Assembly: GCF_019739195.1 (NCBI RefSeq)
Contig: NZ_JAHHDS010000003.1
Location: 2,170,001-2,234,000, forward strand
Source of the DNA: Microcella sp.
GTDB lineage: Bacteria; Actinomycetota; Actinomycetes; Actinomycetales; Microbacteriaceae
Reading direction: 5' to 3'
DNA length: 64,000 nt
Made by a program: the position numbers and the translations under genes. The stretch's first letter is position 1; every line of letters begins with the position of its first letter. This document shows positions 42,671-58,067 of the stretch, piece after piece. The notes under the pieces were generated by a model. The model searched no databases and was not told the DNA's origin. It worked only from the letters and a program-made list of their open reading frames with translations.

Positions 42671-42677
<7 letters not shown>
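42584..42677. repeat. 39-bp tandem repeat between convergent stop codons
   Basis: Two copies (42584-42622 and 42623-42661) of a 39-base GC-rich unit differ at about three positions, and a third partial copy covers 42662-42677. CTAG in copy one is the stop of the LysE gene, and CTAG in the partial copy is the stop of ppsA on the other strand. The middle copy has GTAG instead. Confidence 0.9.
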
Positions 42678-45039
<2,362 letters not shown>

Positions 45040-45043
<4 letters not shown>

Positions 45044-45918
45044 GAGGTGCTCCTGTCGTCGGTGGCCGCCTCGCGGCGGCGCAGTGTGGCGAGAATCACG
45101 GCGGCCATCTCTTCGACCGAGCGGTCGGTCGAGTCGAGGTACGGCACGCCGTGGCGCCGGTAGAGGTCTTCGGCCCAGCGCACCTCTCGGCTGCACTGGG
45201 GGAGCGAGGAATAGACCGACCCGGGACGCCGGGCGGCGCGCACCTCGCTGAGTCGCTGCGGGTTGGCAGTGAGGCCGAAGAGCCGGTCGGCGTGGGGCCG
45301 CAAAGGCCGGGGCAGGTCGTCGCTCGGCCCGCCCCCTGATGGCAGGTCGTCGTCGGTGAGCGGATAGTTGGCGACGACGACACCGTGCTGCAGGGCGAGG
45401 TACATCGAGGTCGGAGTCTTGCCGCAGCGCGACGGGGCGATGAGGATCACCTGCGCCCGATCGAGGGCGCGCAGACTCTGACCGTCGTCGTGCTCGATCG
45501 CGTACTCGATCGCCCACATGCGGTCGTGGTAGCGATCGAGATCGCCGAGGCTGTGCACGGTGCCGCGGCCGGGCTGCGCACTCACACCGAGCGCGGCCTC
45601 GACCTCGCGCAGATGCCCGCCGAGCAGGTCGATGACGATCGCGGGCGCTGCAGCGACGCGCTGGCGCACGGCCAGATCTCGGATGGTCGTGAAGACGAGT
45701 GGCGGAGCATCCGTCGGCGCAGCACCGGCTTTCGCGGCGATCGTGGCCACCGCCTCAGTAGCCGCATCGGCGCTGTCGACGAAGGGGATCGTGTGTCGGT
45801 CGAGGGGCACGCCAGGAAAACTCACGAGCAGAGCGCTGCCGAGGGTCTCGGCCGTGATGGCGGTGCCGTCGGAGACGAAGAAGACGGCGCGCGGGGCAGG
45901 GATGGATGCGCTGCCCAT
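45040..45918 (-). CDS. ppsR: pyruvate, water dikinase regulatory protein (PSRP/DUF299)
   Basis: A 292-residue bifunctional kinase/phosphorylase that switches PEP synthase off by ADP-dependent phosphorylation and on by Pi-dependent dephosphorylation. Visible: [20 protein letters not shown] at the start, the P-loop-like [19 protein letters not shown] near residue 160, and a conserved YPLTDDDLP region. It is translationally coupled to its target, ppsA. Confidence 0.92.
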
Positions 45919-46025: not shown

Positions 46026-46223
46026 TCAGTCCTCGAGCTCGAGCAACTCTCGTTCGCGGCTCTCTTCGATGACCGAGCCGACGGCCACGGCGACACTGAT
46101 GCCCCAGCTCACCCACATGAGGGCAAGGCGCCAGTCGCGCGGGCCGGTGCGGGTCTGGTTGATGACGCCGATCGCCGAGAACGCCGCGCCGATGACGGCG
46201 CCGTTGAACAGAAACTTGCGCAT
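46026..46223 (-). CDS. small two-helix membrane protein
   Basis: A 65-residue protein beginning MRKFLFNGAVIGAAFSAIGV, with two hydrophobic segments separated by QTRTGPRDWR and an acidic C-terminal tail (EESRERELLELED). The upstream GGGAGG is a strong ribosome binding site. No family recognised. Confidence 0.65.
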   Translation of the reverse strand: MRKFLFNGAVIGAAFSAIGVINQTRTGPRDWRLALMWVSWGISVAVAVGSVIEESRERELLELED

Positions 46224-46311
46224 GAGACCTCCCGAGTCGATGACTCCACGCTATCGGCTGGGCACGGCGGGCGGCGAAGTCTGAACGGTGCCCCAGAGCC
46301 AGCCACGAAAC

Positions 46312-46344
46312 TGACCGATCGGCCAGAGTCTGACCGCCTGGTCA
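46312..46344. promoter_or_regulatory. paired TetR operator candidates before the MMPL cassette
   Basis: TGACC-GCCT-GGTCA (46331-46344) is a perfect inverted repeat. TGACCGATCGGCCA (46312-46325) is a near-perfect one, with a palindromic CCGATCGG core. Their centres lie 19 bases apart, on one face of the helix or nearly so, and the second ends 14 bases before the tetR ATG. They probably bind the adjacent TetR protein. Confidence 0.65.
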
Positions 46345-46358
46345 ACTACCGTCGAGTC

Positions 46359-46916
46359 ATGCCTCTTCACGATGACCTGCGCGCGATCGCGCTCGCCGAG
46401 TTCGCCGCCTCCGGCTACGCGGCGACCTCGCTGCAGCGCATCGCCGATCTCGCGGGCACGTCAAAGGCGAGCGTGCTCTACCACTTCGCCTCGAAAGAGC
46501 TGCTGCTGGCCGACATCGTCAGCCCGGCCCTCGACGACATGGAGCGCCTCATCGAGACGATCGAGCACGGCGGCGGACTGCGCCGGGCGGAGTTCGTCGA
46601 GCAGTTCGTCGACCTGCTGCTGCTGCATCGCGAGGTCGTGCCGCTGGTGATCAACCAGGGCGCCACGCTCGATGACGTGCCCGTCATGCATCGGGCCACC
46701 GAGAGCATGCGCCGCGTCGCCGAGCTATTCAGGCTCGCGAGCGGTTCAACGATGGAGAAGCTGCGCTTCGGCGTGGCCTTCGGCGGCGTCGCCTACACTC
46801 TGGCGGCCGCCGAGCGACTGGGACTCAGCGGCGAGATCCCGATCGACGAGGTGCGCGGCGCGCTCCTGACGATTCTGCACGACCTGCTCGTGCCCGCTGA
46901 ATCCACCGCCCGCTAA
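46359..46916 (+). CDS. TetR/AcrR-family repressor of the MMPL cassette
   Basis: A 185-residue regulator. The helix-turn-helix is in TSLQRIADLAGTSKASVLYHF near residues 25-45, with an all-helical ligand domain after it. The ATG at 46359 is chosen: it starts an intact N-terminus just after the operator pair; upstream open frame would cover that operator and the small membrane gene. It is followed after 14 bases by the MMPL transporter and probably represses the three-gene operon. Ligand unknown. Confidence 0.87.
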   Translation: MPLHDDLRAIALAEFAASGYAATSLQRIADLAGTSKASVLYHFASKELLLADIVSPALDDMERLIETIEHGGGLRRAEFVEQFVDLLLLHREVVPLVINQGATLDDVPVMHRATESMRRVAELFRLASGSTMEKLRFGVAFGGVAYTLAAAERLGLSGEIPIDEVRGALLTILHDLLVPAESTAR

Positions 46917-46930
46917 GGAGCCCTACTCGC

Positions 46931-49834
46931 ATGGCCACGCTTCTCTACCGGCTCGGCCGGTTCTCATACCGACGCGCGCGACTCGTCATCATCGTCTGGG
47001 TGCTCGCGCTCGCGGCTGCCGTCGGTGCGGGAATCGGGCTCGGCGGGCAGACCGACGAGACCTTCAGCATCCCGGGCACCGAATCGCAAGTGGCGCTCGA
47101 CCAGCTCAACGCCCTGTTTCCGGCCGTTGCCGGGGCGAGTGCGCAGGCCGTCGTCGTCGCGCCCGAGGGTGCGAGCGTCACAGATGAGGCCCTGCGCGAC
47201 GAGATCGCGGTGCTCGTCGGCGAGCTGGAGGCCGTCGATGGTGTCGACTCGGTGCTCGGCCCGTTCGACGAGTTCGCCAGCAACCAGATCAGCGACGACG
47301 AGACGATCGCTCTCGTGCGCGTGCAGCTGGTGGGCGCGTCGAGCGACGTCAGCGAATCCACGCTCGACGAACTCATCGCAACCGCTGATGCGATCGACGC
47401 GCGCGTCGAGTTCGCCGGCCAGGTCTTTCAAGACACGACGGTGGGTCTGACCATCACCGAGGTGCTCGGCGTGCTCTTCGCGGGCGCGGTGCTCATCATC
47501 ACCTTCGGTTCGCTGCGGCCCGCCTGGATGCCTCTCGCCACCGCACTTATCGGCGTCGGCATCGTCATCGGCGGCATTCTGGCACTCGCGGCCGTGCTGC
47601 CGGTCTCGAGCTCGGCGCCGCTGCTCGCGGTCATGATCGGCCTCGCGGTCGGCATCGACTATGCCCTGTTCATCTTGTCGCGCCATCGAGGGCAACTGGC
47701 GAGGGGCATGGATGCGCCCGAGTCTGCCGCGGTGGCCGTCGGCACAGCGGGCAGCGCCGTCGTGTTCGCCGGGGTGACCGTCATCATCGCGCTGCTCGGC
47801 CTGCTCGTCGTCGGCGTGCCTTTCCTGTCGGTCATGGGCATCGGCGCGGCTCTCGCCGTGCTCGTCGCCATCGCGGGCGCGGTCACGCTGCTGCCCGCGC
47901 TGCTCGGTCTCGCGGGTGCGAAGCTCGCCCCGAAAGAGGGCTCGCGCGCCTGGAAGCGTGCGCACCCGACGGCGTCGACCAGCCCGACGATGGGTCGACG
48001 CTGGGTGCGCGGCGTCATGAAGCGCCCCGTGCTCACCACGATCTCGGTCGTCGCTGTGCTCGGCGTGCTCTCGATTCCGGCGTTCTCGCTCGACCTCAAT
48101 CTGCCCGACGGCGGCAGCGAGCCTGCTGGCTCGACGCAGCGCGAGGCCTACGACCTCATCGCCGAGGGCTTCGGCCCCGGCACTGCGGGTCCGCTGCTCG
48201 TGACCCTCGACATCACGCAGACGACCGATATTCTCGACGACCTCGCCGACATCCGTGCTGAGCTCGAGGGGGTCGACGGGGTCGCGAGCGTGAGCCCGGG
48301 CATCCCGTCACCGGGCCTCGAGACGGCGATCTTCCAGGTTGCTCCCGAGACCGCACCCGACGACCCCGCCACCAAGCTCGTCGTTGCCGACCTGCGCGAG
48401 CTCGCGCCGTCGATCGAAGCCGAGTTCGGCACGCCGCTGGCCGTCACGGGCGTCACAGCGATCGGCATCGACATCTCGACACGGCTCACGAACGCGCTCG
48501 TGCCGTTCGGTCTCGTCGTCGTCGGGCTCTCGGTGATTCTGCTCATGGCGGTGTTCCGATCGGTGCTCGTTCCCGTCAAGGCCGCGCTGGGCTTTCTGCT
48601 CTCGGTCGGCAGTGCGATGGGCATTACGGTCGCCGTCTTCCAGTGGGGCTGGGGCGCAGAGCTGCTGCACGCCGAGCCCGGCCCGATCTTGAGCTTCATG
48701 CCGATCATCCTCATGGCAGTGCTCTTCGGCCTCGCGATGGACTACGAGGTGTTTCTCGTCTCGGGCATGCGCGAAGAGTTCGTGCGCACGGGCGACCCGC
48801 GCACGTCGATCGAAGACGGCTTCGCGAACGGCGCGCGCGTCGTCACAGCGGCAGCGCTCATCATGTTCTTCGTCTTCGCCTCGTTCGTGCCCGAAGGCGC
48901 GGGGCTCATCAAGCCCATCGCCCTGAGCCTCGCCGTGGGCATCGCGATCGATGCCTTCATCGTGCGCATGACGCTCGGCCCTGCCCTCATGACGCTGTTC
49001 GGTCGCGCCGGCTGGTGGTTTCCGCGCGTGCTCGACCGGCTGCTGCCCGACCTCGACGTCGAGGGCGAGAAGCTGCGGCACCACCGCGATCACCGCGAAT
49101 GGGCGGCACTGCAGGGCGACTCCATCATCGTCGCCGAGGGGCTGCGACTGTCGGGGTCGGATGCCCGCCTCGACGTCGTCGCGGGGCCCGGCTCGCGCAT
49201 CGACCTCGTCGGCGATGCCGCCACGCGGCGACTCGTCGGCGCGACCCTCGCGGGCTACCTGCCGATCGCCGGTGGGCGCGCGGTCATCTCCGACGCTGTG
49301 CTGCCCTCCGAGGCGGGTCGTGCCTCGCGTCGGGTCACCCTCGTCGATGTGAGCGGCGACCGGCTCGCGCCCTCGGTGACGATCGGCGCGCTCGTGAGCG
49401 AGCGCATGGCTCTGGCTGCCGGATACCCTCGCGCCCCCCGTCGCGTGCGCCGCTGGCTCGGCAGACTCGCGGCGACGGTCGACGCGCTCGGCGTCGACGC
49501 CCAGGCGATCCGCGACCCCGAGAGCGGCGTCGTCGCGCTCGACGCGCGCCGACGGGCGCTCGTGCTCGCGGCCGTCGCCACACTCGACGCCACCGCCGTG
49601 ATCGTGCTCGACCACCGTGACGACGCGCTCAGTGCCGCCGACATCGACCTCGCCGACGCGCTCGTGCAGCGACTCGCACCGCCCTCGGTCGTGCGTGTCT
49701 GGGGGCGCGAGCCCGGCTCTGTCGCCTCGACTGCCGCGACCACGATCGTGCTCGACGCAGTGCCGGGCTCGATCGGCACCTCGACCGACAGCGACCTTCG
49801 ACCCGCCCTCGCAGACAGGAGCGACGTCTCATGA
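46931..49834 (+). CDS. MMPL/RND transporter with a degenerate ABC-ATPase-like C-terminal domain
   Basis: A 967-residue protein. Residues about 1-715 are a normal MMPL/RND exporter with two sets of six helices, two outside loops, and the motifs GLAVGIDYALFILSRHR and LFGLAMDYEVFLVSGMREEF. Residues about 725-945 are not part of the usual MMPL layout. They read like an ABC ATPase stripped of its catalytic residues: GPGSRIDLVGDAATRRL near 750 in place of Walker A (no GKT/S), GYLPIAGG after it, ALDARRRALVLAAVATLDAT near 868 in the signature position, and VIVLDHRDDALSAADIDLAD as Walker B with His for Glu. The next gene, a YhgE/Pip protein, overlaps by 4 bases. The pseudo-ABC reading is inference from spacing and residue pattern. 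Confidence 0.85.
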   Translation: MATLLYRLGRFSYRRARLVIIVWVLALAAAVGAGIGLGGQTDETFSIPGTESQVALDQLNALFPAVAGASAQAVVVAPEGASVTDEALRDEIAVLVGELEAVDGVDSVLGPFDEFASNQISDDETIALVRVQLVGASSDVSESTLDELIATADAIDARVEFAGQVFQDTTVGLTITEVLGVLFAGAVLIITFGSLRPAWMPLATALIGVGIVIGGILALAAVLPVSSSAPLLAVMIGLAVGIDYALFILSRHRGQLARGMDAPESAAVAVGTAGSAVVFAGVTVIIALLGLLVVGVPFLSVMGIGAALAVLVAIAGAVTLLPALLGLAGAKLAPKEGSRAWKRAHPTASTSPTMGRRWVRGVMKRPVLTTISVVAVLGVLSIPAFSLDLNLPDGGSEPAGSTQREAYDLIAEGFGPGTAGPLLVTLDITQTTDILDDLADIRAELEGVDGVASVSPGIPSPGLETAIFQVAPETAPDDPATKLVVADLRELAPSIEAEFGTPLAVTGVTAIGIDISTRLTNALVPFGLVVVGLSVILLMAVFRSVLVPVKAALGFLLSVGSAMGITVAVFQWGWGAELLHAEPGPILSFMPIILMAVLFGLAMDYEVFLVSGMREEFVRTGDPRTSIEDGFANGARVVTAAALIMFFVFASFVPEGAGLIKPIALSLAVGIAIDAFIVRMTLGPALMTLFGRAGWWFPRVLDRLLPDLDVEGEKLRHHRDHREWAALQGDSIIVAEGLRLSGSDARLDVVAGPGSRIDLVGDAATRRLVGATLAGYLPIAGGRAVISDAVLPSEAGRASRRVTLVDVSGDRLAPSVTIGALVSERMALAAGYPRAPRRVRRWLGRLAATVDALGVDAQAIRDPESGVVALDARRRALVLAAVATLDATAVIVLDHRDDALSAADIDLADALVQRLAPPSVVRVWGREPGSVASTAATTIVLDAVPGSIGTSTDSDLRPALADRSDVS

Positions 49835-51678
49835 CCTCGACCCCCGGCACCTCCCGCAGCTCACGGCGCGGCCTCCGCCGCTGGCTCACGCTCGCCGCGG
49901 CGGTCGTCGTGCCGCTCGCCCTTGTCGGCCTCGCGCTCGCCGCCGTCGGCAGCGATTCCGACGCGCTTGAGCGCATCCCCGCTGCCGTCGTCAATGACGA
50001 CACGCTCATCACGACCACCGACGCGAACGGCGACGAGCAACTGGTCTTCGCGGGCCGGCAGCTGGTCACCGAGCTCACGGCCCCCGATGCCGACGGTTTC
50101 GACTGGACGGTCACGAACGCCGACGAGGCCGAGGCCGCTCTGGCCCGCGGCGACGTCTACGCCGTGCTGACCATTCCGCCGACGTTCTCAGAGTCGCTGC
50201 TGACGATCGGCACACCCGACCCCGTGCAGGCGCGATTGGCGATCGAGACCGACGACGCGCACAGCTATCTCGCCGGCGCTGTCGTGCAGTCCGTCGGCAG
50301 CGGCCTCGCGCAGCAGTTCGGCGCCGCGATCACGGCGCAGTACCTCGACGGGCTCACGACGGGCCTCGGCGAGCTCGGCACCGCGCTCGAGCAGGCCGCC
50401 GACGGCGCGACCCAGCTGGGCGACGGCGCGACCGATCTCAGCGTTGGCTTGAGCGACCTGAGCGACGGCGCCTCGGCCTCGGCGAGCGGCGCCCGTTCGC
50501 TCTCGAACGGCGTGCGCGACTACACCAACGGTGTCAGCGCCCTCTCATCGGGGCTCGCCGAGCTGAAGGCGGGCGCGAACCAGCTCGACCCGCTGCAGCA
50601 GGCGGCGGGCGGTCTCGTGCCGCAGTCGGGCGCGGTCGCCGGCAGCCTGGCCGCGCTCGCGCCGGCCATCGCCGCCTCCGACCTCAGCGATGCCGACAAG
50701 GCGGCGTTCCAGGCCGCGCTCGGTGACGCGCAGGTGCTCGCGGGCACCGCGGGCGCCGTGGTGCCGCAGCTGAACGGTGCGCTCGACGGCCTCCAGTCGG
50801 GCATCGCGCAGAGCGCGAGCGGGGCCGCGGCGCTCGCGGCCGGGGGAGCCGAACTGCGTGGGGGAGCCTCGTCACTTGCCTCGGGCCTCGGCAGCCTCGC
50901 CTCGGGCACCGACCAGGTCACCGCGGGCGCCGTGTCGCTCGCCGACGGTGCCGACGAGCTTGCGACCGGACTCGCAACGGGTGCCGCTGAGATTCCTGAA
51001 GCGGGAGACAGCGCGATCGCGACCGAGCCGGTCATCGTCGACGCGAGCCGCAGTAACGAGGTCGACGGCGTGGGATCGGTGATCGCCGAGACCCTCGTGC
51101 CGGTCGGTCTGTGGATCGGCGCGCTCGCGACCTTCCTCGCCCTGCGCCCCGCTGCGCGCGGCGTCATCGGCACGTCGGCGGCGGGCGGCACGATCGTGCG
51201 CCGTTCGCTCGGCCGAGCCTCGCTCATCGCGCTCGCCCAAGCGGCGCTCGTCACCCTGCTGGTGCACTTGGTGAGCGGCGTCGACTGGATGCTGATGCCG
51301 GCGACCCTCGCCCTGACGAGCGCCATCGCGCTCGCGTTCACGGCGCTGCACGCGGCGCTCACCTTGGCGCTCGGGCGCGCGGGCCTCGTGGTGTCGCTGC
51401 TGCTGCTCGCCGTGCAGCTCGTCGCGACCGGCGGCATCGTGCCGATCGCGGCTCTCGCCGATCCCTTTCCGGCGCTGAGCGCGGTGCTGCCGCTGACCTA
51501 CGCGGTCGACGGCCTGCAGGCGCTCTTCGCGGGCGGCGAGCCGTCGCGCATCGTCGCCGCGTTCGGGGTGATGGTGCTGCTCGGTCTCGTCTCGCTCGCG
51601 GTCGCGCGCCTCGCGGCGGGCCGATCGCGTCGCCGCGATGCGCTCGACGCGTTCGCGCCCGCGGTCGTGACCGCCTAG
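49831..51678 (+). CDS. YhgE/Pip-family membrane protein
   Basis: A 615-residue protein. Helix 1 lies at about 17-40, followed by a long outside domain including AAVVNDD near the start. A heptad-like region of repeated D-G-A/L-S-x-L motifs (about 175-385; QLGDGATDLSVGLSDLSDGA, SLASGLGSLASGTDQVTAGA) follows, then five to six C-terminal helices from about 420. This is the usual YhgE/Pip layout, related to ABC-2 permeases and linked to phage infection and type VII-like secretion in Firmicutes. Its stop shares CTAG with the convergent isomerase gene. Confidence 0.87.
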   Translation: MTSTPGTSRSSRRGLRRWLTLAAAVVVPLALVGLALAAVGSDSDALERIPAAVVNDDTLITTTDANGDEQLVFAGRQLVTELTAPDADGFDWTVTNADEAEAALARGDVYAVLTIPPTFSESLLTIGTPDPVQARLAIETDDAHSYLAGAVVQSVGSGLAQQFGAAITAQYLDGLTTGLGELGTALEQAADGATQLGDGATDLSVGLSDLSDGASASASGARSLSNGVRDYTNGVSALSSGLAELKAGANQLDPLQQAAGGLVPQSGAVAGSLAALAPAIAASDLSDADKAAFQAALGDAQVLAGTAGAVVPQLNGALDGLQSGIAQSASGAAALAAGGAELRGGASSLASGLGSLASGTDQVTAGAVSLADGADELATGLATGAAEIPEAGDSAIATEPVIVDASRSNEVDGVGSVIAETLVPVGLWIGALATFLALRPAARGVIGTSAAGGTIVRRSLGRASLIALAQAALVTLLVHLVSGVDWMLMPATLALTSAIALAFTALHAALTLALGRAGLVVSLLLLAVQLVATGGIVPIAALADPFPALSAVLPLTYAVDGLQALFAGGEPSRIVAAFGVMVLLGLVSLAVARLAAGRSRRRDALDAFAPAVVTA

Positions 51679-52496
51679 CGCTCGCGCGGCGCGTCGACCG
51701 ACAACGGGGCCGTGTGCTCGCGCGCGAACCGCACGGTCTCACGCAGCAGCTCGACGCGCGCGTCGTCGTCGTTGGCGCACGAGCGGGTGTTGATCTCGGC
51801 GACGATCGCGCCGTCGAAGTCGCGGTCGGCCAACGATCGCAGCACCTCGGCGACGGGCTGAGCGCCGTGCCCGGGCAGCAGGTGCTCGTCGAAGACTCGG
51901 TCGTTGGGCTCGGTCGACGAGCCGTCGCACAAGTGCACGTGCCGCAGTCGGTCGCCCCACTGCCGCGCCAGGTCGAGCGCGCTCACGCCGGCGAGTGCGG
52001 CGTGCGAGAAGTCGAGCGTCAGCGCATCGATGGCAAGGTCGCCGGGGTTCCAACTCGGGGCGTAGGCCTCGCGGTCTCGGCCGCGCACCGTGACAGGAAA
52101 CATGTTCTCGACGGCGACGGTCACCCCGTGCCGCGCTTCGAGCTCACGTACCGAGGCCTCGAAGCGGCGGGCGGCAAGCATTTGCCACCGAAACGGCGGG
52201 TGCACCACCACGGTCGATGCTCCGACCCGCTGCGCGAGCGCGATGCTGCGGTCGAGCTTCACGTGCGGGTCGAGGCCGTAGACGAAGGCGGTCAAGACCA
52301 GAACGGGGGCGTGGATGCTCAGCACGGGCATCCCGTATCGCTCACTGAGTGCGCCGATGACGCGAGGGTCACGCGTATCGGGGTCGCTCGTCACCATGAT
52401 CTCGACGCCATCGAAGCCGGCGTCGGCGGCGAGGCGGAAGGCGTCGTGCAGGCGACGAGGCAAGACGCTCGTGGTTCCCATTCCGATGCTGATCAC
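51675..52496 (-). CDS. sugar phosphate isomerase/epimerase (xylose isomerase-like TIM barrel)
   Basis: A 273-residue protein with an AP-endonuclease-2-type TIM barrel. It has LAADAGFDGVEIMV near the start, and metal-ligand candidates in HAPVL, VVHPP, VAVENMF, LDFSHA, HVHLCDG and IVAEINTR. The GTG at 52496 is chosen; an ATG at 52481 is possible. The family includes sugar epimerases and inosose dehydratases; no substrate can be assigned. It is divergent from otsA with a 178-base gap. Confidence 0.78.
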   Translation of the reverse strand: MISIGMGTTSVLPRRLHDAFRLAADAGFDGVEIMVTSDPDTRDPRVIGALSERYGMPVLSIHAPVLVLTAFVYGLDPHVKLDRSIALAQRVGASTVVVHPPFRWQMLAARRFEASVRELEARHGVTVAVENMFPVTVRGRDREAYAPSWNPGDLAIDALTLDFSHAALAGVSALDLARQWGDRLRHVHLCDGSSTEPNDRVFDEHLLPGHGAQPVAEVLRSLADRDFDGAIVAEINTRSCANDDDARVELLRETVRFAREHTAPLSVDAPRER

Positions 52497-52674: not shown

Positions 52675-54123
52675 ATGACCTCTGACTCACGTAGCGACGA
52701 GCACGCGCAGTACGACTTCATCGTCGTCTCGAACCGGCTGCCCGTCGATCGCGTCATCGACGCCGAGGGCGTCGAGACCTGGCAGCGGTCGCCCGGCGGT
52801 CTCGTCACGGCGCTCGAACCCGTCATGAAAGCGTCAGAGGGCGCGTGGGTCGGCTGGGCTGGCAAGCCCGACCTTCAGCTGGCGCCGTTCACCGACAACG
52901 GCACCTACCTTGTGCCCGTGCCGCTGAGCCCCGGCGAGATCGAACAGTATTACGAGGGATTCAGCAACGACACGCTGTGGCCGCTCTACCACGACGTCAT
53001 TGCGCCCCCGAGCTTCCATCGCGAGTGGTGGGATGCCTATGTGTCGGTGAACCAGAGGTTCGCCGATGCGAGCGCGCGCATTGCCGCACCCGGCGCGACC
53101 GTCTGGGTGCAGGACTATCAGCTGCAGCTCGTGCCGAAGATGCTGCGCGAGCAGCGGCCCGACCTGACGATCGGGTTCTTCAACCACATCCCGTTTCCGC
53201 CCTACGGCATCTACGCGCAGCTGCCGTGGCGCAAGCAGGTCATCGAGGGGCTTTTGGGCGCCGATGTCATCGGCTTCCAGCGCGTCGCCGACGCCGGCAA
53301 CTTCTCTCGAGCCGTGCGCCGACTGTTCGGCTACGCCACGCGCACTCCCGAGATCCACGTGCCCGACGGTCCGAGCGGCCACCGCAGCGTCATCGCCAAG
53401 GCATTTCCGATCTCGATCGACGTGGCGAGCTTCGAAGAGCTCGCGCGACGCCCCGATGTGCAGGCGCGCGCGCAACAGATCCGCGACGATCTCGGCAACC
53501 CGAGCACGATCATGCTCGGCGTCGACCGCCTCGACTACACGAAGGGCATCCGTCATCGTCTGAAGGCGTTCGGCGAGCTGCTGCGTGACGGCGCGACGAA
53601 GCCCGGAGAGACCGTGCTCGTGCAGGTGGCGAGCCCGAGCCGCGAGCGGGTCGCCGCCTACATGCAGCTGCGCGACGAGATCGAGCTCACGGTCGGTCGA
53701 CTCAACGGCACTTACGCGACCATCAGCCATCCGGTTGTGTCGTACCTGCACCACGGCTACCCGCGCGAAGAGATGGTCGCGCTCTACCTCGCCGCCGACG
53801 TCATGCTCGTCACGGCTCTGCGCGACGGCATGAACCTCGTCGCGAAAGAGTACGTCGCGTGCCGACACGACGAAGACGGCGTGTTGCTGCTGAGCGAGTT
53901 CGCGGGGGCGGCCGACGAGCTCAAGAACGCCCTGCTCGTCAATCCGCACGACATCGACGGGCTCAAAGAATCGATGCTGCAGGCGATGCGCATGCCGCAG
54001 CGGGAACGCACGACACGGATGCGCGCTCTGCGTCGCCGGCTGGTCGACAACGATGTGGCGCGCTGGTCGCAGAGTTTTCTCGACACGCTGCGGCACGCGA
54101 ACCACCACTCTGATGCCCGATGA
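52675..54123 (+). CDS. otsA: trehalose-6-phosphate synthase
   Basis: A 482-residue family 20 glycosyltransferase that joins UDP-glucose (or another NDP-glucose) and glucose-6-phosphate. Motifs: [13 protein letters not shown] at the start, [52 protein letters not shown], and [14 protein letters not shown]. It overlaps otsB by 4 bases, giving the complete OtsA-OtsB trehalose pathway for osmotic and desiccation stress. Confidence 0.95.
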
Positions 54124-54160
54124 GCGAGCGCCCGATGAGCGAGCGCCCGATGAACGAGCC
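54116..54160. repeat. triple 15-bp repeat containing three otsB start codons
   Basis: Three direct copies of CCCGATGAGCGAGCG (the third with two changes) begin at 54116, 54131 and 54146. Each provides an in-frame ATG (54120, 54135, 54150), so the OtsB N-terminus is MSERP repeated twice and then MNEP. Confidence 0.92.
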
Positions 54161-54956
54161 CCGCGACGGCAGCGCACCCGTACGCCCGCTCGACGCCGGT
54201 CTCGTCGCTGAGCTGCGACGGTTCGCCGCTCGTGAGACTGTGCTCATTGCGCTCGACTTCGACGGCACGCTCGCGCCCGAGGTCGACGTGCCCGACGAGG
54301 CACGGGCGCTGCCCGCTGCGGTGGAGCAGCTCGAGGCCCTGCAGCGGGCACCGGGCGTCACGATCGCCTTCGTCTCTGGCCGGTCGCTCGCGAGCCTCGA
54401 CGTCGTGGTGCCGCCGAGCGTGACAGCCGCGATGATCGGCTCGCACGGTCTCGAGTTGCGCCTCGCGCCGGGCGACGAGGTTCCCGCTGTTGACGCTGCC
54501 GATCGTGCGCGGGTCGAGGCGCTGCTCGACGTGCTCTCGCCCCTGGTCGACGCGGTCGAGGGTGCCTGGATCGAGCATAAGCCCGCGGGTTTCGCCGTGC
54601 ACACTCGCGTGGTCGAGACGGATGCTGCGGCCGCCCTGCAGGCCGCCGTGCGCGAGGCGGCTGCCGCACTCGATGCCGGGCTCACGGTGCGCGATGGCAA
54701 GAACGTCGTCGAGTTCGCCGTGCGCGATGCCACGAAGGGCGATGGCCTGCGCGCGCTGCGATCGAGGCTGCGGCCCGACGCCGTGCTCTTCGCGGGAGAC
54801 GACGTGACCGACGAAGACGCGCTCGCAGCGCTCGAGCCCGGCGATGTCGGCATCAAGGTCGGTGATGCTTCGACCGTCGCGCCGTGGCGGGTGAGAAGCC
54901 CGCAGCAGCTTGTGCTCGTGCTCGCGGCGCTCGCCGATGCGCGGCAGAGCGCCTGA
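54120..54956 (+). CDS. otsB: trehalose-6-phosphate phosphatase
   Basis: A 278-residue HAD-family phosphatase. The catalytic aspartates are D46 and D48 in [13 protein letters not shown] (counted from the ATG at 54120). Later come [22 protein letters not shown], the trehalose-phosphatase type [13 protein letters not shown], and the acidic motif [12 protein letters not shown]. The first ATG overlaps the otsA stop as ATGA; two more in-frame ATGs lie in the following repeat copies. It completes trehalose synthesis with OtsA. Confidence 0.94.
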
Positions 54957-55112
54957 GTTGGGGTCGCCGCTCCTGGAGTGTGAGTGATTCCTCGATGGCG
55001 GCCACCCGCACTCGGAAACGTCACGGGTCTCGCTCAGTAAGATGAACACATCCGGCGACCACGCCGTGACGCCCTACCCCCTTGCCGACACACCGACACC
55101 GAGGGAGGACGC

Positions 55113-58067
55113 ATGCTCGCCGTCCTGACGGTGTTCGGGCTGGCCGCCATGGCTCTGCCGTTCTTGGCGCGCGTCATGGGCACTCGGGTCTTCTGGGTCG
55201 CCGCGCTCGTCTCGCTGGGTGCCTTCGTGCACACCCTGCTGCAGGCACCCGCGGTGCTGAGCGGCGACGCGAAGCAGCTGCCGTTTGAGCAGGTCACCTA
55301 CATCGCTCAGCTGCAGTTCACCCTTGACGTTCGCATGGACACCCTGTCGTGGGTGCTCGCTCTCATCATCACGGGCATCGGCAGTCTCGTGCTGTTCTAC
55401 TGCGGGTCGTACTTTCGAGACGACGAGAAGGGCTTAGGGCGGTTCGCCGCCGTGCTGCTCGCGTTCGCTGGGGCGATGTACGGGCTCGTGGTCGCCGACG
55501 ACGTCTACCTGCTCTTCGTCTTCTGGGAGGCCACGAGCGTCTTCTCGTACCTGCTCATCGGGCACTACACCCACCGCAAGGCGAGTCGTGGCGCGGCCCT
55601 GCAGGCTCTCATCACCACGACCCTCGGCGGCCTCGTCATGCTCGTCGGCCTCGTGCTGCTGGCCGTGCAAGCCGACTCGTCGAGTCTCTCGGTGATTCTG
55701 GCGACGACCCCGGCGACCACCCTCACGACGGTGGCCGTATATCTCGTGCTCGTCGGCGCGCTCTCGAAGTCGGCGATCGTGCCGCTGCACTTCTGGTTGC
55801 CGGGCGCCATGGCCGCACCGACTCCGGTCAGCGCTTACCTGCATGCCGCGGCGATGGTCAAAGCGGGCATCTACCTGCTCGCACGGCTCGCGCCCGCCTT
55901 CGTCGAGGTGCCGGGATGGCGCGAAGTGCTCGTCGTGCTCGGGCTCGCCACGATGCTGCTCGGTGGGTGGGTCGCGCTCAAGCAGACCGACCTCAAGCTG
56001 CTGCTCGCGTACGGCACGGTCAGTCAGTTGGGCTTTCTCACGGTCGTCGCCAGCTTCGGAACCCGTGACAGCGCTCTCGCGGCGATCGCGCTGCTACTCG
56101 GTCACGCACTCTTCAAGGCCGCCCTGTTTCTCGTCGTCGGCATCATCGACCACGAAGCAGGAACCCGCGACCTGCGCAAGCTATCGGGATTAGGGAGGCG
56201 GTCGCCCGTTCTCGCCGTTATCGCGGGGCTCGCTCTCGCCTCGATGGCGGGCGTGCCTCCGCTCTTCGGGTTCGTCGCCAAAGAAACGGTGCTGCACGCC
56301 CTGCTCGAGGCCGCTGCCGGCCGCGGCGGTGAGCAGCTCGGCGCGAACGGCCAGCTGTGGGGGACCATCGCCGTTGTCGGTGTGCTGGTCGGCTCCGTGC
56401 TCACCGTGGCATACAGCCTGAGGTTCTTCTGGGGCGCATTCGCGCGCAAACCCGACGTGGACGACGTCACAGCGCTCGCGACCGTCAGCCGACTGTTCCT
56501 CTTCGCACCTGCCGTGCTCGCGGTGACGAGCCTCGCGCTGGGCCCGCTCGCAGGCTTCGTCAACACTGGCCTGGCGGGGTACCCGGCTCTGTTCCCCTTC
56601 GTCGGCGAAGAGCCGTACGCGCTCGCGCTCTGGCACGGCTTCGCTCCGGCGCTCGGGCTCTCGGCGATCACGATCGTCGGGGGAGCCGTGCTGTTCGTGC
56701 TGCGCACTCGTGTTGCGCGCGTGCAGGCTCGACTGTCGACGGGCCTGAACGCCTCGGACGCCTATTGGGACACCATGAGTGCCGTCGACCGCTTCGCCGC
56801 CAAGGTGACGAGCCTCACGCAGCGCGGGTCGCTGTCGTTCTACCTCGGCGTCATTCTCGTGGTCTTCGTCGGAGTCATCACGGCGGGTCTCGTGACCGGC
56901 GACAGCTGGCCGACCGAGCTGCGCGCCTGGGATCAGCCCGCACAGCTCGCCATCGGGGCCGTCATGATTGGTGCGGCCATCGCCGCCACCCAGGCGCAAA
57001 AGCGGTTCGCGGCGCTCGTGATCGTCGGTGTCACGGGCTTCGGCATGTCGGCGCTCTTCGCCCTGCAGGGCGCGCCCGATCTCGCCATCACGCAGATTCT
57101 CGTCGAGATCGTGACCCTCATCGCGTTCGTGCTCGTGCTGCGGCGCCTTCCGGCCAAACTCGGCGACCGGCACGGCAGCACGCACAAAGCGCTGCGTGCC
57201 GTGATCGCCATCAGCGTCGGCGTCGTCATGGCGCTCGTCGCCCTCATCGCGGCCGGCTCGCGCATCGCCGAGCCCATCTCGCTGGCGTGGCCCGAGTTGG
57301 CCTTCGTGCAAGGGCACGGCCGCAACATCGTCAACGTCGCGCTCGTCGACCTGCGCGGGTGGGACACCCTCGGTGAGCTCGCCGTCGTCATCGCTGCTGC
57401 GACGGGAGTCGCGAGCCTGCTCTTCTTGCGCGACCGCGGCGACACCCCGACCCGCATCGGCCGCTCAGTCATCAAGAACCGCATCGCCTCGAAGCTCGAG
57501 CGGGTGCGCGAGCTGGGCGCCGAGGGCGAGCGCCGCAATGCCTGGATTCTCGCCGGGCCCACGCTCGACCCGCGCCACCGATCCATCTTGCTCGAAGTGG
57601 TCGTGCGCCTCACCTTCCACGCCATCGTCGTCTTGTCGCTCTACCTGCTGTTCGCCGGCCACAACCTGCCGGGCGGCGGGTTCGTGGGCGGCCTCGTCGC
57701 GGGCCTGGCCCTCGTCGGGCGCTATCTCGCTGGTGGACGCTACGAGCTCGGGGTCGCCTTGCCGGTCGGCGCGGGTGCCGTGCTCGGCACGGGACTCATC
57801 ATCGCCGCGGGCGCCGCGCTCGTGCCCGTGTTCTTCGGGGCGCCGCCGCTCACCTCTACCTACTGGGAGGCCGACGTCTGGCTGCTGGGCGAGATCGAGT
57901 TCGTCACCTCGACCATCTTCGACATCGGCGTCTACCTCATCGTGATCGGGCTCGTGCTCGACGTGCTGCGCAGTCTCGGCGCCGAGGTCGATCGGCAGGG
58001 CGGCGATGAGCAGGCGCCGCCCGCGCTCGCCGCGCGCGCCCGCGCTCAGAGGGAGGCCACGCGATGA
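55113..58067 (+). CDS. mrpA: Na+/H+ antiporter subunit A (MrpA-MrpB fused form)
   Basis: A 984-residue subunit. The N-terminal two-thirds is a complex-I NuoL-like antiporter module (FWEATSVFSYLLIGHYTHRK, SAIVPLHFWLPGAMAAPTPV, LLAYGTVSQLGFLTVV). The middle has the MrpA-specific DUF4040-like helices (LAITQILVEIVTLIAFVLVL). The end (about 825-970) is an MnhB-type domain (HAIVVLSLYLLFAGHNLPGG), so no separate mrpB exists. First gene of the Mrp operon; overlaps mrpC by 4 bases. The complex expels Na+ against protons and supports pH and salt tolerance. Confidence 0.93.
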   Translation: MLAVLTVFGLAAMALPFLARVMGTRVFWVAALVSLGAFVHTLLQAPAVLSGDAKQLPFEQVTYIAQLQFTLDVRMDTLSWVLALIITGIGSLVLFYCGSYFRDDEKGLGRFAAVLLAFAGAMYGLVVADDVYLLFVFWEATSVFSYLLIGHYTHRKASRGAALQALITTTLGGLVMLVGLVLLAVQADSSSLSVILATTPATTLTTVAVYLVLVGALSKSAIVPLHFWLPGAMAAPTPVSAYLHAAAMVKAGIYLLARLAPAFVEVPGWREVLVVLGLATMLLGGWVALKQTDLKLLLAYGTVSQLGFLTVVASFGTRDSALAAIALLLGHALFKAALFLVVGIIDHEAGTRDLRKLSGLGRRSPVLAVIAGLALASMAGVPPLFGFVAKETVLHALLEAAAGRGGEQLGANGQLWGTIAVVGVLVGSVLTVAYSLRFFWGAFARKPDVDDVTALATVSRLFLFAPAVLAVTSLALGPLAGFVNTGLAGYPALFPFVGEEPYALALWHGFAPALGLSAITIVGGAVLFVLRTRVARVQARLSTGLNASDAYWDTMSAVDRFAAKVTSLTQRGSLSFYLGVILVVFVGVITAGLVTGDSWPTELRAWDQPAQLAIGAVMIGAAIAATQAQKRFAALVIVGVTGFGMSALFALQGAPDLAITQILVEIVTLIAFVLVLRRLPAKLGDRHGSTHKALRAVIAISVGVVMALVALIAAGSRIAEPISLAWPELAFVQGHGRNIVNVALVDLRGWDTLGELAVVIAAATGVASLLFLRDRGDTPTRIGRSVIKNRIASKLERVRELGAEGERRNAWILAGPTLDPRHRSILLEVVVRLTFHAIVVLSLYLLFAGHNLPGGGFVGGLVAGLALVGRYLAGGRYELGVALPVGAGAVLGTGLIIAAGAALVPVFFGAPPLTSTYWEADVWLLGEIEFVTSTIFDIGVYLIVIGLVLDVLRSLGAEVDRQGGDEQAPPALAARARAQREATR

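Follow-up and report, generated by a model that had tools for sequence, protein, structure and literature searches.

A degenerate ABC-derived domain at the C-terminus of an MMPL transporter and its YhgE/Pip neighbor in Microcella sp.

We analyzed a 64,000-nucleotide stretch of a Microcella sp. genome (contig NZ_JAHHDS010000003.1, positions 2,170,001 to 2,234,000; hereafter the window), in which a 967-residue MMPL (RND) transporter (46931..49834, plus strand, as are all features below unless stated) is directly followed by a 615-residue YhgE/Pip protein (49831..51678), an ABC-2-like membrane protein whose LxxG heptad repeats are presumably extracellular. The C-terminal tail of the MMPL protein carries a degenerate ABC nucleotide-binding domain (NBD) at about residues 725-945 (49103..49765), as indicated by profile and hhalign evidence. 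At the level of sequence, the comparisons described here show that this tail derives from the ABC nucleotide-binding domain found alongside YhgE in this class, and we favor, with some reserve, a role for it as an adaptor between the two transporters.

Descent of the MMPL tail from an ABC nucleotide-binding domain

The RND/MMPL part occupies residues 1-705 (46931..49045) and contains the duplicated MMPL domain, PF03176 matching in two stretches with 275.4 bits against a cut-off of 20.5. Its nearest solved relative is MmpL3 (7nvh), aligned by phmmer over residues 9-331 and 357-705 (E 2e-50), while other MmpL3 chains align up to residue 711. Both Asp-Tyr pairs are found, the first in GIDYALF (residues 241-247; 47651..47671), aligned with IDYGLF of MmpL3, and the second in AMDYEVF (residues 602-608; 48734..48754), aligned with TDYEVF. 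We take these pairs to be the proton relay, a role known from work on MmpL3, and by this alignment both proton-relay motifs of the MMPL protein are intact. About 250 residues lie beyond the RND part, beginning with the conserved linker PDLDVEGEKLRHHRDHREW (residues 706-724; 49046..49102), which connects it to the NBD-like domain. The linker motif [DE][VILMA]EG is present in 71/71 MMPL-fused proteins and Trp is the residue at 724 in every one of the 35 long fused rows that have a letter there. Elsewhere in the same genome, the second strong MMPL match has an open frame of merely 728 residues and a third match is weak (E 7e-11). Among plasmid records, an MMPL match was found in 128, and 0 had a place covering 80% of the 967 residues.

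Taken as a single sequence, the window tail has 0 matches in Pfam, 0 in NCBIfam and 0 in a phmmer search of the PDB. Homology was assessed with two profiles: A2, made of 21 tails from 28 loci (L008, L013, L017, L025, L028, L032 and L034 being left out as near-copies or fragments), and A3, made of 37 tails, namely that of the window, those of 6 genus rows and 30 drawn from 39 family tails (leaving out L072, L082, L084, L086, L088, L090, L092, L096 and L102), with no Walker A Lys in any of them. Scanned one by one against Pfam, the 21 tails of A2 gave weak matches to just four families. Against the PDB, A2 matched 56 sequences with E-values of 10 or less, the lowest being 0.001, 54 of them ABC or SMC proteins by name, with New1 counted among the ABC proteins on our own assumption, and two being DDX6 helicases. 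A3 matched 437 distinct sequences at the same limit; the best 60 of these 437 are all ABC proteins, and the top match is ABCA3 (E 4.6e-14) in the correct register. We take the membrane architecture of ABCA3 to be that of ABC2_membrane_3, the Pfam family matched by YhgE itself.

Profile-to-profile comparison agrees with these searches. In hhalign runs against 16 canonical ABC domains encoded by the host genome, A2 reached 94.3% and A3 97.8%. The controls, of which the shuffled ones were run with A2 and none with A3, stayed at or below 0.8% for 30 column-shuffled canonical alignments, at or below 0.5% for 30 shuffled A4 alignments, and at 0.1% for YhgE. The nearest kin among free genes are the NBDs encoded beside YhgE: A2 aligned with 47 of them at 99.3% (E 2.7e-20) over 202 columns. 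A quick tree split all 117 YhgE-partner NBDs from the 16 canonical ABC domains by one branch (SH-aLRT 100).

A tail search of 60 genomes matched 27 at E 1e-3, 25 of them from the window genus (its own genome included). The family sample gave tail matches in 65/85 genera and 180/299 genomes, part of which are true ABC ATPases. The order-wide A3 tally of 244/248 genomes is uninformative, since true ABC ATPases match there too.

Catalytic motifs were counted in an alignment of 133 rows comprising 117 YhgE-partner NBDs (47 free, 70 fused) and the 16 canonical domains; from the NBD set, the spurious open reading frame (ORF) L154b had been removed and L151 had dropped out, its domain being shorter than 120 residues. 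The canonical set has the Walker A Lys, the Q-loop Gln, the signature and the catalytic Glu in 16/16 each. In the window, the Walker A remnant LVGDAATRRL (residues 759-768; 49205..49234) has Arg766-Arg767 in place of Lys-Ser/Thr; the Q-loop strand and the stretch after it, RRVTLVDV...VSERM (residues 800-826; 49328..49408), have no Gln; the helix at the signature position, ALDARRRALVLAAVATL (residues 869-885; 49535..49585), keeps just the Leu (L870) of LSGGQ; and the Walker B remnant VIVLDHRD (residues 890-897; 49598..49621) retains Asp894, with His895 replacing the catalytic Glu. Near the place expected for the H-loop His the window reads VRVWGRE, the H column not being reliably fixed by the pattern used. 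Aligned against the canonical domains, the tail is shown to be without four features that an ABC ATPase needs. Because these four are not there, we class the protein with the MMPL transporters, as one whose ABC-derived domain is degenerate, and not with the ABC ATPases. The original prediction, read from the letters of the window, had the protein running on for some 240 residues past the RND helices, which agrees with the end of the MmpL3 alignment at 705-711. It had also derived the tail from an ABC ATPase domain, as the PDB profiles, hhalign and the intermediates described below bear out. Its motif register was correct, R766-R767, L870 and D894-H895 falling in the expected columns, and its account of the losses (Walker A Lys-Thr/Ser, LSGGQ and the catalytic Glu, with His after the Asp) is confirmed by the alignment.

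Across the YhgE partners, the losses are general. The catalytic Glu is present in 0/117, LSGGQ at the signature columns in 0/117 (LSGG stands elsewhere in L092 and L122), the Q-loop Gln in 1/117, which is not the window, and the Walker A Lys in 13/117 (10 free, 3 fused), with Arg at that column in 78/117; the Walker B Asp is retained in 100/117. Among the 36 long fused rows, 33 have Arg at the Lys column and 31 a second Arg at the next. The nine genus rows have Arg at the Lys column in 9/9 and Lys in 0/9, and the following Ser/Thr is lost in 8/9, the P-loop of the window reading GDAATRR. As the alignment has it, Arg-Arg for Lys-Ser/Thr is a conserved replacement, not random decay, and its conservation as a pair suggests that the former phosphate site has gained a new structural contact. 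A further Arg, R825, stands in an ERL-like motif and is Arg in 33/36 long fused rows and in 31/47 free NBDs, the canonical domains having Gly, Pro or Val there in 13/16. In ABC structures this region faces the permease, and docking to YhgE would predict just such an Arg there, one typical of YhgE partners.

In tails of a short type (L085-L095, L097 and L135-L154), the signature is gone, as is much of the helical part. Free NBDs in one family of the order (L115-L122) combine an intact Walker A with a Walker B that is regularly Asp-Asp, VVDDVD[SA]LR.

Association with YhgE and history of the fusion

The protein encoded downstream belongs to the YhgE/Pip family, scoring 113 bits with TIGR03061 (cut-off 96.15) and 132.7 bits with TIGR03062 (cut-off 102.2); TIGR03057 (34.5 bits) and ABC2_membrane_3 (PF12698, 63.4 bits) also match over their cut-offs. 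A complete ABC-2 exporter combines a permease with a hydrolysing ATPase, and here the YhgE permease part is present and the ATPase motifs are absent.

The gene order is constant. YhgE is the next gene on the same strand at 62/62 fetched MMPL-NBD loci, a number made up of 39 of 40 regions, 20 of 20 and 3 more, the fortieth region being an unrelated ABC match without MMPL. At 20 free-NBD loci near the top of the A3 order list (L115-L134), the NBD gene lies directly 5' of YhgE on the same strand in 20/20; the list had been ranked by similarity to the tail, and the motifs of these loci are therefore no random sample. For the same reason, a second survey was started from YhgE. With TIGR03062, 118 genomes of the class gave 31 matches over the cut-off, and an NBD stands directly upstream in 31/31, of which 27 are free and 4 MMPL-fused (the window, L077, L175 and L176). 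Two of the 27 free NBDs, L177 and L180, match weakly (22 and 24 bits). A further 24 YhgE matches fell below the cut-off, and the three inspected (L093, L094 and L183) are all MMPL-NBD loci. Elsewhere in the phylum, YhgE was found in 16 genomes, and among the loci fetched from 12 of them an NBD occurs at 1/12 (L223) and is missing at 11/12; one Listeria YhgE locus has no NBD beside YhgE. Since the NBD is there in 31/31 cases within the class against 1/12 outside it and none in Listeria, the NBD-YhgE partnership is mainly a trait of the class and not of YhgE generally.

Outside the class, the lone NBD (L223:3005-3790) has an intact Walker A, GRNGSGKT, and a Walker B, VVDDVED, from which the usual Glu is missing. 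Seven other fetched loci (L225-L231) have a tandem pair of YhgE genes and no NBD match, as if the two products formed a heterodimer.

Intermediates connect the window tail to recognizable ABC domains. In L175 and L176 the NBD fused to the MMPL protein keeps GPSGSGKT intact, and that of L175 matches ABC_tran at 60.7 bits (cut-off 25); L153 retains GARPCGKS, and L087, L089 and L090 read GPHRSGRT. The free NBD of L117 matches ABC_tran at 49 bits. At E up to 1e-3, ABC_tran matches 39/47 free and 8/69 fused NBDs, and the window not at all. Free NBD genes are already without signature and catalytic Glu, so the loss of these two precedes the fusion or is independent of it.

On the number of fusion events, the trees differ. 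In the NBD tree, the fused label needs 3 changes: eight very degenerate free NBDs (L168, L172-L174 and L177-L180) stand beside the long fused tails (SH-aLRT 98), and L175 and L176 group with free NBDs (support 86). In the YhgE tree, from which 8 genus rows were left out, the label needs 1 change (support 24), and the approximately unbiased (AU) test on the question of a single fusion event gave p = 0.363. Some genomes have both systems, for example G414, with L125 as the free and L137 as the fused form, and G516, with L129 and L135 respectively. The original prediction linked the tail to YhgE, a link that this constant neighborhood supports, and had proposed a survey of homologues for a separate ATPase gene; relatives do have a free ABC-like gene directly before YhgE. 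The tethering by a scaffold or regulator that it proposed is plausible. Its idea that an ancestral set of three genes (MMPL, ATPase, YhgE) had collapsed is not supported in that form: the fetched loci show just two arrangements, free NBD with YhgE or MMPL-NBD with YhgE, three separate genes were not seen, and at the 46 loci with free NBD and YhgE, BLAST detected no MMPL in the fetched flanks of a few kb.

A possible coupling role and its alternatives

On balance, we judge it probable that the operon encodes a hybrid exporter in which the dead domain serves as an adaptor, tying the proton-driven MMPL pump to YhgE independently of ATP. The dead NBD would dock to YhgE from the cytoplasmic side, in the way an active NBD does to its permease, and would thereby lock the pump to YhgE. 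The proton gradient, by way of MMPL, would supply the energy in place of ATP, YhgE and its repeat stalk would receive or escort the exported cargo, and the product of the upstream TetR gene would control expression. The cargo is probably a lipid or glycolipid, a guess made by analogy with MmpL3. In a bolder version, which we advance only tentatively, RND pump and ABC-2-type permease would form one machine, the former ATPase domain providing mechanical coupling and the proton gradient powering an ABC-like exporter.

Several observations weigh against the adaptor role. The helical stretch, the would-be docking groove, is poorly conserved, with a mean entropy of 2.31 bits in long fused rows, compared with 1.51 bits for the stretch from Walker A to the Q-loop in the same rows and 2.12 bits for the helical stretch in canonical ABC domains; just single positions such as R825 stand out in it. 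The signature columns are gaps in 33/70 fused rows and the short tails are without much of the helical part, so docking, if real, cannot rely on this part everywhere. The occurrence of YhgE without an NBD at 11/12 loci of the phylum outside the class and at the Listeria locus means that YhgE needs no NBD in general. The correlation of NBD and YhgE tree distances across 109 rows (Spearman 0.63; maximum of 999 permutations 0.14) speaks for the adaptor role, but it also reflects shared host-genome ancestry. Finally, compared with three more distant relatives, the ratio of nonsynonymous to synonymous substitution rates (dN/dS) is 0.32-0.34 for the tail, higher in each comparison than for MMPL (0.11-0.16) and YhgE (0.19-0.30).

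This faster evolution of the tail, together with the loss of the catalytic motifs and a variable length and helical part, would also suit a functionless relic of an accidental fusion in the course of decay. We regard this as very unlikely. Compared with two close relatives, the tail has dN/dS values of 0.077 and 0.103, alongside 0.087 and 0.067 for MMPL and 0.069 and 0.066 for YhgE, and by these ratios the tail is shown to be under purifying selection. The Arg-Arg pair, the linker and R825 are conserved, no internal stop appears among the matches listed in the genus and family searches, and tails match in 65 of the 85 family genera, even if some of these are true ABC ATPases. That the resemblance to ABC domains could have been read by chance into the hydrophobic strands of a GC-rich tail was considered in view of the failure of the single sequence to match Pfam, NCBIfam or the PDB; in our view the PDB profiles, hhalign with its shuffled controls and the series of intermediates whose motifs are intact refute this, leaving it a negligible probability.

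The main rival to the adaptor is a nucleotide sensor, in which the tail would bind ATP or ADP without hydrolysis and switch MMPL according to the energy state, contact with YhgE being secondary. Retention of the Walker A Lys in 13 and of the Walker B Asp in 100 of the 117 partners despite the lost Glu and signature fits such a role, as does GPSGSGRT (Arg for Lys), which is kept in many free NBDs. The altered P-loop of the window and its genus, with Arg for Lys throughout and Ser/Thr lost in eight of nine rows, does not, and the constant neighbor in the class survey is YhgE and not MMPL, 27 of the 31 NBDs being free genes; we therefore hold a sensor to be unlikely. Degenerate and active NBDs are known to pair in ABC exporters, and the genome has 82 ABC_tran matches, so the dead domain might be the inactive half of a heterodimeric ATPase whose active half is a separate ABC ATPase, YhgE being a true ABC exporter. 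However, no second NBD gene was recognized in the operon, there is one NBD match per YhgE gene at the fetched loci, and the signature, needed to complete the site of the partner, is lost in 117/117. This arrangement seems to us even less probable than decay.

The operon and its place among known transporters

The first gene of the likely operon encodes a TetR-family regulator (46359..46916; PF00440, 45 bits; start codon picked by eye), which stops at 46916, 14 bases before the MMPL start at 46931. The MMPL stop and the YhgE start overlap in ATGA, and AGGAG lies 5' of the YhgE start. A promoter and terminator scan of 46200-51900 found no terminator and a single weak match, inside a coding region; an Rfam scan gave a tRNA as its sole match. 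The host genome measures 2.88 Mb. A TetR homologue occurs at 25/39 fetched MMPL loci of the family and at 0/14 in loci L085-L098. Weak matches to the window TetR also lie 3' of the free NBD-YhgE pairs L155, L157-L161, L163 and L165 (E 4e-6 to 3.5e-5, E-values of neighbor-gene matches at fetched loci referring to small ORF sets). On the minus strand, 42671-45918 precedes the operon and presumably encodes PEP synthase and its regulatory protein, and 52675-58067, which follows it, presumably contains genes for trehalose-phosphate synthase and phosphatase and an Mrp-type antiporter subunit, both assignments coming from a reading of the translations. MmpL3 exports trehalose monomycolate, and trehalose is thus the sugar of its cargo.

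Among known systems, the window protein resembles MmpL3 in its RND core and in both Asp-Tyr pairs, yet it scores 192.1 bits against the NCBIfam MmpL3 cut-off of 1400, and to our knowledge MmpL3 has neither an ABC-derived domain nor a YhgE partner. Exporters of the ABC-2 or ABCA-like kind share the PF12698 match of YhgE, the best PDB match of the tail (ABCA3) and, in relatives, the permease gene directly after the NBD gene; they differ in that the window NBD is joined to an RND pump and has none of Lys, Gln, signature and Glu. YhgE/Pip proteins are known as phage infection proteins. Like those of Firmicutes, the window YhgE passes the TIGR03061 and TIGR03062 cut-offs, but the one Listeria gene examined has no ATPase beside it. 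Its N-terminal part also resembles EsaA of type VIIb secretion (TIGR03929, 31.5 bits, E 1.2e-7), at a score below the cut-off of 122. One paper says that the YhgE/PIP domain has no known function (PMC4999554), and another notes that a YhgE/Pip gene lies upstream of genes of the Mce family (PMC12584985). In the open full-text literature, with subscription papers and preprints mostly outside this scope, titles and abstracts among the matches listed describe no MMPL protein with an ABC-derived domain and no YhgE-partner ATPase; within these limits, we did not find the joining of two transporter families through a dead ATPase domain described.

For annotators, the profiles offer a means to recognize a domain that Pfam and NCBIfam models do not detect in the window. 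If the adaptor role is right, the MMPL tail would be a case from nature in which an ATPase domain has become an adaptor linking two superfamilies of transporters, and the role of YhgE becomes testable, as that of a permease that may have swapped its engine.

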